Source: a virus. From it: DNA of 21,633 bases. Positions 10,545 through 21,002 of this stretch are shown piece by piece. Where the stretch lies: the IMG/VR virus record IMGVR_UViG_3300033153_007826, positions 1 to 21,633 of that record, one strand, 5' to 3'. The notes beneath the pieces were generated by a model. That model did no database searches and was not told the DNA's origin. It saw only the letters and a program-made list of their open reading frames with translations. The number at the start of each line of letters is the position of its first letter. Within the stretch, counting starts at the first letter, position 1. Position numbers and translations under genes: made by a program.

Positions 10545-10697
10545 CTAAGACTCCTTAAATTGTATGCGTTCCATATGCTCACCAGTCTTACCAAGATTAA
10601 AACTTTCTACTGGTCTGTGATAACCCATAACTCTTGTATATATAGTACATTTTTGTCTTTTGTCTTTTAGCTTTGCTAATATTTCATTTTTACTCAT
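10545..10697 (-). CDS. 50-residue NrdD C-terminus-like microprotein
   Basis: Too short for usual ORF cut-offs, but well supported. On the minus strand ATG 10697 to TAG 10545 gives 50 codons, with AAGGAT five bases upstream overlapping the endolysin stop. The protein is basic at its start (MSKNEILAKLKDKRQK). It then reads CTIYTRVMGYHRPVESFN, LGKTGEHMERIQF. The pattern C-x-x-x-x-RVxGYxxPVxxxNxGKxxExxxR resembles the C-terminal, glycyl-radical-bearing end of class III anaerobic ribonucleotide reductase (NrdD). Phages often encode it as a free small protein. If the analogy holds, the glycine in VMGY would be the radical site. The CxxC zinc cysteines of full NrdD are absent; only one Cys exists. 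It may be a spare radical domain or a repurposed fold. Confidence 0.8.
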   Translation of the reverse strand: MSKNEILAKLKDKRQKCTIYTRVMGYHRPVESFNLGKTGEHMERIQFKES

Positions 10698-10702
10698 TTT
10701 GT

Positions 10703-10708
10703 ATCCTT
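10703..10708 (-). promoter_or_regulatory. Ribosome binding site of the NrdD-like microgene
   Basis: AAGGAT on the minus strand, five bases before ATG 10697 and overlapping the TAA of the peptidase gene. It supports real translation of the 50-codon gene, coupled to the lysis cassette. Confidence 0.65.
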
Positions 10709-14623: not shown

Positions 14624-17600
14624 TTAGTATCCAGTAGCTGTCCAGCTAACGGTTGCGCTTGCTCTATCACCAACATCATCAAAGACATACACATCAAAGT
14701 CTGTCGGGTTAGGAACATCATCGAAATCATAAATAACTGTTAGAGGTACTGTGCCATTAACGGACACACCTATTGACGTTACATCAACAAAATCTGTGGC
14801 GAAGGTAACTGTAGTTCCTCCACTGTCGGTAGATAAAGCTTCAACGGACCCAGACTCACTTAATATTTTACTAGCCAACTTAATTTGTATGTCTTGAACC
14901 TCAATATATGAAGTATCATCACACACAAAACTTACTGTTATTTTAACATATCTAAAATTAAGAGCATATGCCGTGTATACATTTCCCCAATCATCCCAGT
15001 CAATATTGTCATCAGAGGTTTTAATGTTCATAACAACAGTAACATTTTCATCACCACCTATAATCCAAGTTGGAACAACACTTATTAAAGTACCAGCTAG
15101 AAGCGTACCATAGTCAAGAGTCTCTTCATAAGAGCCACTTGTCTCAAATGGTGAAATCCATAACGGATAACCAGCAACTACTTGTGCGTTTGGTGATGCA
15201 AATGAGTTTGACGTAAAGTGAACAGAATAAGTTTCCGTTGCATTTACTCCATAAAGCATAACATCTTCAGAGGTAATACCGTTTACAAGTGTGCCGCTAA
15301 AATCACTATAATAATCAAGATGTAATTGATAATCTGGAGGACTTGAAACTTCAGCTAATATACTTCTAGGAGTACCATAATTACCAGCTGAGTCTATAGG
15401 TACACACCAGTAAGTATATGATCCAGCTAATGTTTCAAAGATAGACGTAAACGTACCTTTTTTCTCACCAATTATTGTAGCTGTAGCATAAACATCACCC
15501 CTACGTATCTCGAAGTTGGTAATTGGTAAAGTGCCTTCAACAGGAATCCATTTTAATAGCACATTATTATCAATAACATCACCGGTAAGAGCACTTAAAG
15601 AAGATAGATTTATTGTTATATTTAATGAAGCTGCTGTACCTACATTACCTATAATATCTACAGGTGAAACATAAAAAGTTTTACCACCACTCCAATTTAT
15701 CAATTTTATAAAAGTGGTAGTTTTAACACGAACCTCAGTAGAATCATAAGTAACTAAATAATAATCAATTTGAAGATCACTTGTGGGAACAGTCCAACTT
15801 AAATATAACTCAGTACCAATAATTTCAGATGATAAATCTAACTGTGGTGGTGATACTATCTCCAACTCAGTTGTAGCCTCAGTTTCAGATAAATTACCAG
15901 AAGTGTCTACAGCACTGATACCATATGTATGATTTTCATCGGGTGCTGGGAGTGGTGCTGAATATGAAGTACCACTAAATTTTTCCACAAGTGTGGTAGT
16001 ATCTACAGTTAAATAATAACTTGCTAAATCCACATCACTTACAGGGTCCCATGTTAAACGAACAACAGACTGTGAAGTGTCAAGTGTTGCTGTAAAACCT
16101 GTAACATCTTCGGGTGCTTCTAATTTACCAAGATATATTACACTAACTTCAGGTGCTGAAAGTAAAGGTTCCACAGTTCCAAAAAACTCAACTTGGACTT
16201 TGAAAATGTAAGATTTTCCTTCAGTTAAATCAAGAGCGTTATATGTATAATTTAAGTTAGTTGTCGTGACGATAGGCGCATATGAATAACCACCATCACT
16301 CGAAATCAGGACATTAAATCTTGCTGATGTGTTATAATCGACAGACAAATCCCAAAACAAATCAATATATGGAATAATCGTACCGTCATTCTTTTTTTCT
16401 AAATGTTCCTCATAATCTAAATTTTCAACAGAAATATTACTGTCAAAATAAGATGCTGAAGGTGTAGGTATTATAACCTCTGTGTCAGTTAAAATACTTT
16501 CATTATAATCAATAGCTTTCACTTTACGTGTCTGGTCAGAAGCTCTTGAAATATCAAATATTCTAAAAAGTTGTTTTTCACTTCCAGTTTCACCAAACGT
16601 GAAAACGTCATACTCACTGGGGATAGTTGTGAAAGCTTCAGTGACATTTAAAGTGTTGGTGGTTTGTGTAATAACAAAGTCAATAACTCTTTCTTCAAAA
16701 GTATCGTCTGTTGAAATACGAATTATAATAGCGTAAGACTTGCCTTCAGTAACTGTTACCTCTTGATCCAAAGTAACAGATGTTGAGGTGGCTGACACAA
16801 CGCGACCACTATAAGCCCACATTGGAACATCATGTGCAAAATAAATAACATCACCAACAGTACAAGCTAAAGCATCAACTCCAACTTCAAATTCTACAGA
16901 ACGTCTTAACTGTTTATTACAGTGAAGAAAATATTTACCAGCTCTATACGCAGCACTCGGGTTTGTCACCCCCAGGAGTGATATTGTGCTTTTCTTAGTC
17001 GTTACAGTATTATCATAATAATCAGGAGCCACCACAGAAAGTTGATCTTTAGTGTAATCATTATTAGCATTGGTATACTGTATCTCAATTTCAGTAGCTA
17101 AATCTTCAGAACCAACATAAGCTGTTTTAAAACTTTTTTCTATGATATTACCCATTGAAAACAGTTGTACTGGCGTTTCAGGTTTATCAACAACGACACT
17201 ATACTTAGTACCACGAATCACAATACCAGCTCTACCAACAGTAGCTAATTTTTCAAGAGCTTCCCACACATTTGTATTGAAATCAAATATACCATTGAAA
17301 CGTGCTCTACGTTCACCGCCACCACTAAGTCCATTGTAAACTATTTCGTCACAAAAATCAGCCCAATCTACGAATGATTGAAAGTCTATCTTACTAAAAG
17401 CTAGGCCAGCGCCGTATTTTACATTTGTTAGTAAATCCCAAGCCGCCCAAGCTGGATTACCCATATCTCCATAATCTGTATAAACCATACCGTCCTCATC
17501 ATGTATTATATGTGGAGCACGTGTTATAGTAGTTGTAATTGTAGGATCACCACCGCTTAATTGACCTGTTGCTAATATTTTCAAACCTAATAAGGCAAGC

Positions 17601-18946
17601 CCTGGATAACACAGTTCATCATAAATAACTTCACCTATACCAGCATGGAAGAGTTCTGTTTTAGTACGGGTGTTAGAATCATCGGCAGTATTTCTAGTAA
17701 TACGTGTTTCATATTGGTCAGGTAATAAACCGTCAATACGAATGGTAAACTTAAGAGGTGTATTTTGAGCACCTTTGACAGTCCAAGTTGTTGGTAGAGT
17801 TGTTTCGTATATAGCTCTACGTTCCCCACTCATAACATAATCAGTATCAAAATTATCCAACGAACAATAAGTGGAATAAAGGTCTTCCACCTGTGTCCAC
17901 CCTTCTTCATAAACATCAGAACATTTTACATATTTGTACTCATAATAATCTATTGCCACATTTCTATCATCAGGTACATTTATCCAAGTGCCGTCTCCAA
18001 CTTTTCTATACTCAACTGTGAAGTTTACAGATCGTGTATCAAAACCACCATCATCATTAGCATAATATATACCATAAGGAAAAGCCATATATAAGATCAT
18101 ACCTTCGATACCATTACCTAAACTTTGTTTCACTACAGGATCATTATAAAGACACTGTGCAGAAAAACCATTTGCTGTAATAGTTTCTCCAAAATAAGGA
18201 ATTATGCTTTGGTTATCAGAACCGTCTCTCTGGAACATTTCGTAATCTTTATATGTTGTAATATCCATACCATTAAGTTTAATATTACTATCGGAAATAT
18301 TTTGGATTCGGCCTTCAGATAAAGCTAATAAAACATATAAATATTCATCAGAACCGTCATATTCAACTCTACGACTGATAATATTACCAGCTACAGCATG
18401 TGTACCATAAAGTACAGGTATTGGTGTTCCAATTCTAGCTAATGTTCTCATACCTTCCCAAGAATACGTAGGGCTTGCAGCAGCATCAGCACCAGCTATC
18501 TGAGGTACATCTGGCATTTGTGGAGGTAAAAGAGCATTTATTATCATACTACCAGCTACAACAACACCAATTTGTAGACCTAGAAAAATACCAGCACCCA
18601 TCATACCACCATAAACACCAGCGCCAACCATACCGGCTGTAGCTCCCATTATTGCACCAGCTGCGTATGGAGCCACTACAGCAATTGCAATTATGGCAAC
18701 TATACGAATTATACTTTTAGAAGAATCACTACCTTCAAGCATAGGAGCAATAATAATCTGAGAATTTTCGTGGGGAATAACAGAATAATCAGTAACATTC
18801 ACACCATTGAGATTAACTATATACTCTCCTCCTGGTGGCACATAAGATACTAAAGATTTTGCTTCCCAAGGGAAATCGGCTATCAATCTATTTTTAGGAT
18901 CAAGTGGTTCAAAAATGTTGGTGATGAGAACTTTACGTATTGCCAT
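14624..18946 (-). CDS. Tail tip protein J-like host-specificity protein (I-J fused)
   Basis: A 1440-residue central tail-tip protein of the lambda gpJ type that contacts the host receptor and leads DNA into the cell. Residues 1-70 resemble the beta-grasp start of lambda gpI-like proteins. Residues about 78-141 form a long Gly/Ala/Ile hydrophobic stretch. The J core begins at about 155 (YSWEGMRTLARIGTPIPVLY; later GDMGNPAWAAWDLLTN and FDFNTNVWEALEKLATVGRA). About four fibronectin type III-like domains follow (roughly 855-935, 940-1030, 1032-1115, 1118-1200; for example VVRLTWDPVSDVDLASYYLT). The C-terminus ends TVSWTATGY, like lectin-type tips. The start has a GGAG site and overlaps the K-like gene by 14 bases. 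Confidence 0.9.
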   Translation of the reverse strand: MAIRKVLITNIFEPLDPKNRLIADFPWEAKSLVSYVPPGGEYIVNLNGVNVTDYSVIPHENSQIIIAPMLEGSDSSKSIIRIVAIIAIAVVAPYAAGAIMGATAGMVGAGVYGGMMGAGIFLGLQIGVVVAGSMIINALLPPQMPDVPQIAGADAAASPTYSWEGMRTLARIGTPIPVLYGTHAVAGNIISRRVEYDGSDEYLYVLLALSEGRIQNISDSNIKLNGMDITTYKDYEMFQRDGSDNQSIIPYFGETITANGFSAQCLYNDPVVKQSLGNGIEGMILYMAFPYGIYYANDDGGFDTRSVNFTVEYRKVGDGTWINVPDDRNVAIDYYEYKYVKCSDVYEEGWTQVEDLYSTYCSLDNFDTDYVMSGERRAIYETTLPTTWTVKGAQNTPLKFTIRIDGLLPDQYETRITRNTADDSNTRTKTELFHAGIGEVIYDELCYPGLALLGLKILATGQLSGGDPTITTTITRAPHIIHDEDGMVYTDYGDMGNPAWAAWDLLTNVKYGAGLAFSKIDFQSFVDWADFCDEIVYNGLSGGGERRARFNGIFDFNTNVWEALEKLATVGRAGIVIRGTKYSVVVDKPETPVQLFSMGNIIEKSFKTAYVGSEDLATEIEIQYTNANNDYTKDQLSVVAPDYYDNTVTTKKSTISLLGVTNPSAAYRAGKYFLHCNKQLRRSVEFEVGVDALACTVGDVIYFAHDVPMWAYSGRVVSATSTSVTLDQEVTVTEGKSYAIIIRISTDDTFEERVIDFVITQTTNTLNVTEAFTTIPSEYDVFTFGETGSEKQLFRIFDISRASDQTRKVKAIDYNESILTDTEVIIPTPSASYFDSNISVENLDYEEHLEKKNDGTIIPYIDLFWDLSVDYNTSARFNVLISSDGGYSYAPIVTTTNLNYTYNALDLTEGKSYIFKVQVEFFGTVEPLLSAPEVSVIYLGKLEAPEDVTGFTATLDTSQSVVRLTWDPVSDVDLASYYLTVDTTTLVEKFSGTSYSAPLPAPDENHTYGISAVDTSGNLSETEATTELEIVSPPQLDLSSEIIGTELYLSWTVPTSDLQIDYYLVTYDSTEVRVKTTTFIKLINWSGGKTFYVSPVDIIGNVGTAASLNITINLSSLSALTGDVIDNNVLLKWIPVEGTLPITNFEIRRGDVYATATIIGEKKGTFTSIFETLAGSYTYWCVPIDSAGNYGTPRSILAEVSSPPDYQLHLDYYSDFSGTLVNGITSEDVMLYGVNATETYSVHFTSNSFASPNAQVVAGYPLWISPFETSGSYEETLDYGTLLAGTLISVVPTWIIGGDENVTVVMNIKTSDDNIDWDDWGNVYTAYALNFRYVKITVSFVCDDTSYIEVQDIQIKLASKILSESGSVEALSTDSGGTTVTFATDFVDVTSIGVSVNGTVPLTVIYDFDDVPNPTDFDVYVFDDVGDRASATVSWTATGY

Positions 18947-19322
18947 TATATCTCCAATAACCAGCTATGCGATTACTCCACACTGGGTTTCTAATACTCT
19001 CTACTACGATAGAAGTATCTTTAAGTACATGAATAAATTTATCATCATCAAGCATGTAACCAGCATGTCTCATAATACCACCTATGATGAATACAACAAC
19101 GCTACCTTTTACCGGATCGCTTTTAGTCCATTTAGGTGTCATTACTTGTTCGATAAAGTACATAGAGTTAGTATCATTATTTGCTTCATCATAAATGAAA
19201 TCAGGAAATGTAAGACCTAACTCTTCTTTACCCATATGCTTAACAAGACCCCAACAGTCAAAACCTTCTTCTAATGATCTTCCTTTGTTTTTAAAAGGTA
19301 ATCCTATAAGTTCATTTATCAT
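18933..19322 (-). CDS. Tail tip NlpC/P60 protein (lambda K-like)
   Basis: A 129-residue NlpC/P60 cysteine peptidase of the tail tip, comparable to the peptidase half of lambda gpK and to GTA tail hydrolases. It may cut peptidoglycan locally during DNA entry or act in tip assembly. The catalytic Cys is in EGFDCWGLV (C23). His is in MRHAGYM (H86) and a third polar residue is in KFIHV (H98). The N-terminal INELIGLPFKNKGRS is typical of the family. There is no attached JAB/MPN metalloprotease domain, unlike lambda gpK. It sits between the L-like and J-like genes, the canonical M-L-K-I-J order. The restored L-like gene would end in an ATGA overlap with this ATG. Confidence 0.9.
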   Translation of the reverse strand: MINELIGLPFKNKGRSLEEGFDCWGLVKHMGKEELGLTFPDFIYDEANNDTNSMYFIEQVMTPKWTKSDPVKGSVVVFIIGGIMRHAGYMLDDDKFIHVLKDTSIVVESIRNPVWSNRIAGYWRYNGNT

Positions 19323-19404
19323 TTGTATATTGCTCCACTTGGGATACCTGGGAATACCAGGATTGGTAGTCTGTTAACCTCAACTGTATTTGCTAAGATT
19401 GTAC

Positions 19405-19472
19405 TAATCACATCAGCTGGGGTTTCAGTTTGGATAAGTAATCACATCAGCTGGGGTTTCAGTTTGGATAAG
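19405..19472. repeat. Perfect 34-bp tandem duplication
   Basis: Two adjacent identical 34-base copies, 19405-19438 and 19439-19472, beginning taatcacatcagctgggg. Identity stops exactly at the unit ends, so no extra microhomology flanks them. The length is not a multiple of three and it introduces a stop near the end of the L-like gene. Confidence 0.97.
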
Positions 19473-20126
19473 AAATGGTTTTTCACACCAGGCTGCTGGT
19501 ACTGTGTTTACTGAGTCATTATAATGACCATAAAAGATAACATCGTGGGTAGCTGTCACCAATCTTTTAAGCTCAGTACCATCATAAACCCTAGCACCAT
19601 CTAAACTATAAATACCACTGATACCAGTATCAGCACCACTATAACCATAAGGATGAACAATACCTACAAGTAAGTACCATGTGTTATCTAATGGTAAATC
19701 TTGATTTGAAATAGTATAAGGATACGTTGGCACTTCATCATCTAAATACGCAACTTGATCACTATTACTCCTATTTGTACCGAGATAAGTAGCGCCATTA
19801 TCATTTAGTCTTTTTACAAAACAGCCATGAATATAAGTCTTCGTTTTATCTATGGGTATGAGTGGTGCATAAAAAGCTCCATCAAAACTAAGACTACCAT
19901 TAGGTGTTGATACCCAAAGTAAGGATGTATGGTTTGAAGCACCAGTTCCATAAATTATACTATTCTCATCAAGATCACCTGTGTAATCCCATCCTTCTGG
20001 TGGCATTTCCATACTTTCCCATACAGCATAGTCAATGAGGTTGTTCTCAATATGACCAGCTCTACCATCTGTACCAAATTTCTCACGACAGTCAGTAAGA
20101 GTTTTACCACAAGTAGTATCTGTACC

Positions 20127-20189
20127 TGTGTAACCACACCCACTATCTTTGAAAGTGTGTAACCACACCCACTATCTTTGAAAGTGTGT
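20127..20189. repeat. 29-bp-period tandem duplication with TGTGT microhomology
   Basis: Period-29 repeat covering 63 bases: two copies of the unit (20127-20155, 20156-20184) followed by a further tgtgt (20185-20189). The ancestral single-copy sequence would start and end with tgtgt, a five-base direct repeat suited to replication slippage. The 29-base insertion breaks the L-like reading frame in the middle of its cysteine cluster. Confidence 0.97.
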
Positions 20190-20663
20190 TGACAAGCGTT
20201 AGGTAAAAACTTTCTACGAGGGAACTGCATACGAATAGGGTTTGGCATACCTAACTGAAAAGTTACAAACGACTCATCAGCGCCAACACTTAGTGATGTA
20301 AACTCTAAAGCTATCTCAGGTGTTGAACTCTCAATGTTAGAAGTGTGTACAACTCTAAGTTCTACTTTCCATCCCGAACCATAATCAGGATCATTCTCAA
20401 CATAACCTTGAACAATACGTTGAACATTTGAAACTTTTAATCCAATAGTAGGTAATTGACCATGTGATGTTTCTGGAACATCATCTATATCAAAAGGAAA
20501 AGCTATATAATCAGTGCTATTCCAGGTAACGTCCTCAGTGTTTGAACAAATGGAAATATGCACACTCTCATCTTGATTAAAAAGATCTATTAAAAGTAAC
20601 CATGAACCTGTGTCGGTTAGTGAGTTCTTTTTCTCTTTTGCAATTGATGATATGGTTAACACG

Positions 20664-21002
20664 TTATACCTCTCTCAAAGTGAATTGTATATCATATCTG
20701 TCTGGACGATTACCCTGGGCTTTATAAGCTGGAGCATTATCATAACGCATTGTATAAACAGTTGTTGTGTCAGGATCAGTCCAATCAAAAGAGTCAGAAC
20801 CACGAACTACACCATAATGTGTAAGTAGTAAGTTTCTGTCAGCAATGGATAAACTTTTATATGCAACTTTTACAGTAGCTCTATTTCTAGTGTGACGTTC
20901 ACGTGTTTGTTGATACCCACCTTCAAACTTTGTTTTGATTGTAGAATACTCAGGATTAAAATCTACAGACACTGGATTGACAGTTAAAGTTGGATAAGCC
21001 AT
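20664..21002 (-). CDS. Minor tail protein M-like
   Basis: A 112-residue protein of the phage minor tail protein (lambda gpM-like) family, part of the tail tip built around the tape measure. Recognisable elements are KFEGGYQQTRERHTRNRATV (about 29-48), KSLSIADRNLLLTHYG, SDSFDWTDPDTTTVY and a final YDIQFTLREV strand. Length agrees with lambda gpM (about 110 residues). AGAGGAA precedes the ATG, and one base separates it from the tape-measure stop. The next gene starts, with GTG, one base after this stop, so translation is probably coupled. Order tape measure, M, L, K, J is the canonical lambda order. Confidence 0.87.
   Translation of the reverse strand: MAYPTLTVNPVSVDFNPEYSTIKTKFEGGYQQTRERHTRNRATVKVAYKSLSIADRNLLLTHYGVVRGSDSFDWTDPDTTTVYTMRYDNAPAYKAQGNRPDRYDIQFTLREV
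20669..20674 (-). promoter_or_regulatory. Ribosome binding site for the GTG start of the L-like gene
   Basis: GAGAGG on the minus strand lies six bases before GTG 20662 and inside the end of the M-like gene. It supports the GTG start, because no in-frame ATG lies nearby. Confidence 0.65.

Follow-up and report, generated by a model that had tools for sequence, protein, structure and literature searches.

The window analysed here, meaning the whole stretch of viral DNA under study, is the complete IMG/VR record IMGVR_UViG_3300033153_007826, which comprises 21,633 bases and contains no Ns. Its genes are tightly packed, with small gaps or overlaps, and on the right the contig stops inside the tape-measure gene. 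M-like, L-like, K-like and J-like genes follow one another on the minus strand (Table 1), and of these only the L-like gene is broken. Among the other complete genes of the window, none is visibly interrupted or decayed. The only sizeable intergenic gap in an otherwise packed minus-strand block measures 162 nt (10545-10706). Elsewhere, the gene at 1817-2665 resembles by eye a phosphoadenosine phosphosulfate reductase-type protein, and a search of IMG/VR for it gave no close relative.

Table 1. Coordinates of the genes, reading frames and repeats around the interrupted L-like gene.
Feature	Position	Strand	Basis or remark
J-like central fibre gene, intact, 1440 aa	14624..18946	-	phrog_31, E 4e-149
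K-like NlpC/P60 gene, intact	18933..19322	-	PF00877, E 6e-13
gpL-like hub (tail tip) gene	19319..20662	-	PF05100, DUF1833, phrog_18; position between M-like and K-like genes
L C-terminal cap (..LPILVFPGIPSGAIYK)	19319..19404	-	back in first frame; ATGA overlap with K
Insert absent from L071 and L072	19373..20065 (approximate)	-	~230 residues, ~195 of them predicted jelly-roll module
34-bp duplication, copy 1	19405-19438
34-bp duplication, copy 2	19439-19472
ORF2	19425..20168	-	cysteines 2-4 of cluster, then inserted carbohydrate-binding-like module
ORF1	19955..20662	-	N-terminal hub domain and first cysteines of cluster, then out-of-frame tail past the 29-bp duplication
29-bp duplication, copy 1	20127-20155
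29-bp duplication, copy 2	20156-20184		self-match extends 5 nt further, to 20189
M-like (distal tail) gene, intact	20664..21002	-	same gene order in L071, L072 and nickie

The break coincides with two perfect tandem duplications, of 29 and 34 bp, that had been reported in the initial annotation. Tandem Repeats Finder, a repeat finder and a direct scan all recovered them, with unit 34 at 19405-19472 and unit 29 at 20127-20184, and all three methods found no further perfect tandem duplication with a unit of at least 10 in the 21,633 bases. None occurred in shuffled sequence (n=5). The two duplications are 654 bp apart, and neither site contains Ns. The initial annotation had not noticed that the self-match, the longest stretch identical to itself at a given offset, is exactly 34 nt at both sites, despite periods of 34 and 29. 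At the 29-bp site, the 34-mer carries TGTGT at both its ends, so that its copies overlap by 5; the unit is 29 bp because the copies share this motif. At the 34-bp site the copies abut, with no microhomology.

As deposited, the two duplications split the L-like gene into three frames. Reading begins at a GTG (20662) and stays in frame 0 up to the 29-bp duplication, continues in another frame in the middle, and returns to frame 0 after the 34-bp duplication, ending with a stop at 19321-19319. The initial annotation had stated that deletion of one copy of each unit yields a single frame of 426 codons, and the arithmetic is correct: the span of 1344 nt less 29 and 34 leaves 1281 nt, or 426 codons and a stop. 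It had further proposed that this deletion rebuilds a four-cysteine cluster and restores an ATGA overlap with the K-like gene. Both points hold: the first frame alone encodes the first cysteine and the second frame alone the last two, and the resumed frame 0 ends in a TGA that overlaps the ATG of K. Restoration of the frame by 29 + 34 = 63 nt was considered as meaningful in itself and rejected, since any two out-of-frame units have about an even chance of doing so and the stretch between them contains stops. The two longer pieces are ORF1 (235 aa) and ORF2 (247 aa); the GTG of ORF2 sits inside the 29-bp duplication, where a clear ribosome-binding site is absent.

The gene's assignment to the gpL-like hubs is consistent across profile, motif and context. 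The N-terminal hub domain is recognized in ORF1 by PF05100 Phage_tail_L (37.4 bits, cut-off 25; E 2e-9), DUF1833 (25.6 bits, cut-off 21) and phrog_18 (E 7e-18). The four cysteines and the cap are all encoded and align with the L gene of contig L072, but lie in three frames as deposited. The gene is located between M and K, upstream of J. The gene is presumably essential, as is generally known for lambda gpL.

The closest L genes found are those of the contigs L072 and L071, which are 51% and 48% identical in the N-terminal part. In each of them a single unbroken frame, slightly longer than 200 aa, encodes one cysteine cluster and the C-terminal cap seen here; L071 also shares the ATGA overlap with K. 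L072 contains no repeated segment, and aligns successively with the end of ORF1, the start of ORF2 and the final frame-0 piece. About 45 further complete L homologues from IMG/VR also read through in one frame. Aligning relatives had been suggested in the initial annotation, and the outcome bears out its view that the gene is disrupted: the relatives are single-copy at both sites, lack the duplicated sequence and have an unbroken gene, and no homologue inspected carries a second copy at either. Neither ORF2 nor an exact 20-mer beside the 29-bp site retrieved a near-identical contig from IMG/VR, the record itself and near records being set aside.

To gauge how often such duplications arise, we counted perfect tandem duplications with a unit of 13-300 and a self-match of 20 or more across 232 loci, which total 2.78 Mb and are for the most part viral contigs. 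Of these loci, 152 are relatives, chiefly from IMG/VR but including some phage and bacterial records, and the other 80 were picked from IMG/VR by an arbitrary 14-mer. The full set holds 14 such duplications. In 10 of the 14 the unit is divisible by three, and the remaining 4 are out of frame, a rate of ~1.4 per Mb that predicts ~0.03 in a sequence of 21.6 kb. The corresponding probability of two or more in 21.6 kb is ~5e-4 (Poisson on the comparison counts). At this rate, it is unlikely that the two duplications arose as independent ordinary events; assembly joins or one damaged genome would supply a fitting common cause. A further perfect tandem duplication was seen in a metagenome viral contig (L040, 9191-9315), with a unit of 62 and a self-match of 63, and causes a frameshift close to the C-terminus of a small gene; it may belong to the same class as the artefact proposed below.

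Relative to L071 and L072, the L-like gene carries an insert between the last cysteine and the C-terminal cap. Homologues of the inserted module occur in phage fibre or structural proteins of the Vibrio phages SBP1 and 6E35.1a and of the IMG/VR contigs L066, L068, L069 and L070, and the domain homologues L065-L070 are single-copy at the motif that is duplicated at the 34-bp site. The module has no Pfam match. An AlphaFold2 model from six sequences reached a mean pLDDT of 57 (~52-84 per block over residues 61-230), compared with 30 for a single-sequence fold of ORF2. The modelled module resembles jelly-roll carbohydrate-binding modules, with Z ~9.9 against CBM4-2 and CBM61, yet MAM and Eph domains score about as highly. 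On the basis of this model, the insert may consist mostly of a carbohydrate-binding-like module.

Five L homologues (L013, L022, L026, L034 and L038) hold other inserts in the same C-terminal region within an unbroken frame, and the C-terminus of the hub seems often to receive added modules. The C-terminal region of gpL has been called hypervariable (PMC13243795). Various inserts within or next to the cysteine cluster, in one frame, were also observed in these five and in L024 and L046. The initial annotation had suggested that the segment between the duplications might have been separate because it varies between strains. Most of a domain missing from the closest relatives does lie in this segment, but neither duplication coincides exactly with an edge of the insert, the 29-bp one being ~62 nt outside and the 34-bp one ~33 nt inside. 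These offsets, together with the differing sequences of the two units, led us to reject the idea that the duplications mark exact insertion edges, as in a target-site duplication. Within the record, a 34-nt stretch of the J gene (17225-17258) is 82% identical (E 5.8e-4) to one at the start of the module in the L gene (20055-20088); this likeness is possibly chance and possibly a trace of module insertion.

Of the causes that had been put forward in the initial annotation, untrimmed contig joins agree best with the data, since the self-match measures exactly 34 nt at each site and the remaining complete genes appear unbroken. We consider it likely that the break in the L gene is an assembly artefact, in which pieces were joined with their overlap left uncollapsed. 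Under this mechanism, assembled pieces sharing a 34-nt end sequence would have been joined at two points without collapse of the overlap. At one join all 34 nt would have been written twice; at the other, TGTGT, a 5-nt match by chance, would have served as the point of merging, with 29 nt remaining in excess. The frame would shift at each join, and the two together would leave one gene in three frames. We infer the joining step, the assembler and a k of 35 (overlap k-1). Equal lengths of 34 nt are what constant-overlap joins would be expected to give, whereas we estimate the chance of such equality under independent duplication at roughly 1 in 20-40; chance equality at that level also counts against the artefact, and with two sites only, a constant overlap length is weak when taken alone. 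Other points tell against it as well: we identified no assembler with 34-nt overlaps, a joiner that seeks overlaps should normally find 34 nt, the joins contain no Ns, and the TGTGT edging the 29-bp unit is also expected from natural microhomology-mediated duplication. In the literature on untrimmed contig overlaps, we did not find this exact error described.

That same TGTGT boundary speaks for genuine tandem duplications in a phage or prophage that is defective or has recently mutated, where slippage or template switching would have duplicated 29 and 34 bp, and short frame-breaking cases do exist in other contigs (L040, unit 62). We nevertheless regard this origin as unlikely: with a background of about 1.4 per Mb, two events would have had to strike a single gene inside 0.8 kb, the 34-bp site lacks microhomology, and the equal 34-nt self-matches would be a coincidence. 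It would be similarly doubtful that L is no longer a functional hub and that the lineage is dead or lives by complementation. Tight gene packing and the lack of any visible interruption in the other complete genes make a decaying genome less likely. A chimera formed before or during sequencing, as an amplification or library artefact rather than at assembly, would likewise yield duplications absent from relatives; it would need to account for most reads at both sites and does not predict equal self-match lengths, and we judge it improbable. The most remote readings give the break a function. In principle, recombination or slippage can return perfect tandem copies to a single copy, and the copies here are perfect, as would suit a genetic switch in which the duplications expand and contract in the population and turn the L gene on and off. 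Switching nonetheless lacks positive evidence: two out-of-frame units would have to change together, slippage tracts do not usually consist of two copies of 29-34 bp, the L protein serves as a structural hub and not as an optional surface protein, and such repeats occur in no inspected relative. We therefore hold a switch to be very improbable, and we give just as little credence to real, reversible duplications that keep part of the population without a functional hub, perhaps toggling the module-bearing L. A functional split into separate ORF1 and ORF2 products, which the length of both ORFs might suggest, is equally hard to credit, given the start of ORF2 within a duplication and lacking a clear ribosome-binding site, the division of the cysteine cluster between products, the non-homologous, out-of-frame tail of ORF1 and a conserved C-terminal cap left untranslated.

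Under the preferred explanation of uncollapsed assembly joins, the break itself is probably without biological meaning, and the split gene is most likely not a real feature. In nature, the L-like gene is most likely intact and encodes a gpL-family hub with a carbohydrate-binding-like module near its C-terminus. If the break is an artefact, a single uncorrected overlap length can turn one intact tail-tip gene into what looks like three fragments, and a self-match length shared by several tandem duplications of a contig would provide a simple warning sign. The biology that remains is modest, namely a gpL homologue with a modelled carbohydrate-binding-like module in a variable C-terminal region, a possible point of receptor contact.

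False tandem duplications through assembly errors are known from chicken and pig, as recounted in a passage of PMC4662242 that cites Zhang and Backstrom 2014, and from the animal genomes of the VGP (PMC9516828). Those cases resemble the one proposed here in that the assembly holds duplicate sequence absent from the true genome; they differ in concerning animal genomes and being generally larger, whereas here 29-34 bp are affected in a viral contig and the artefact is a probable one. The L genes of L072 (IMG/VR 3300020045) and L071 (IMG/VR 2929491376) share the cysteine motif and C-terminal cap with the present gene, but are unbroken and lack the inserted module. That module shares ~27-32% identity in alignments and the same W-LLV core with the SBP1 tail protein, 6E35.1a, L066, L068 and L069; there it forms part of large fibre or structural proteins, whereas here it lies inside a hub protein. 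With lambda gpL and the Phage_tail_L family (PF05100), the iron-sulfur hub of siphophage tail tips, the L-like protein has in common the profile-matched N-terminal hub domain and the gene order M-L-K-J. In lambda gpL, four cysteines hold an iron-sulfur cluster and are spaced by 9, 23 and 7 residues (PMC10721106), compared with 9, 9 and 7 in the L reading here, where the cluster motif is putative. The present gene further departs from lambda gpL in its interruption by two duplications and in the ~230-residue insert that precedes its C-terminal cap.
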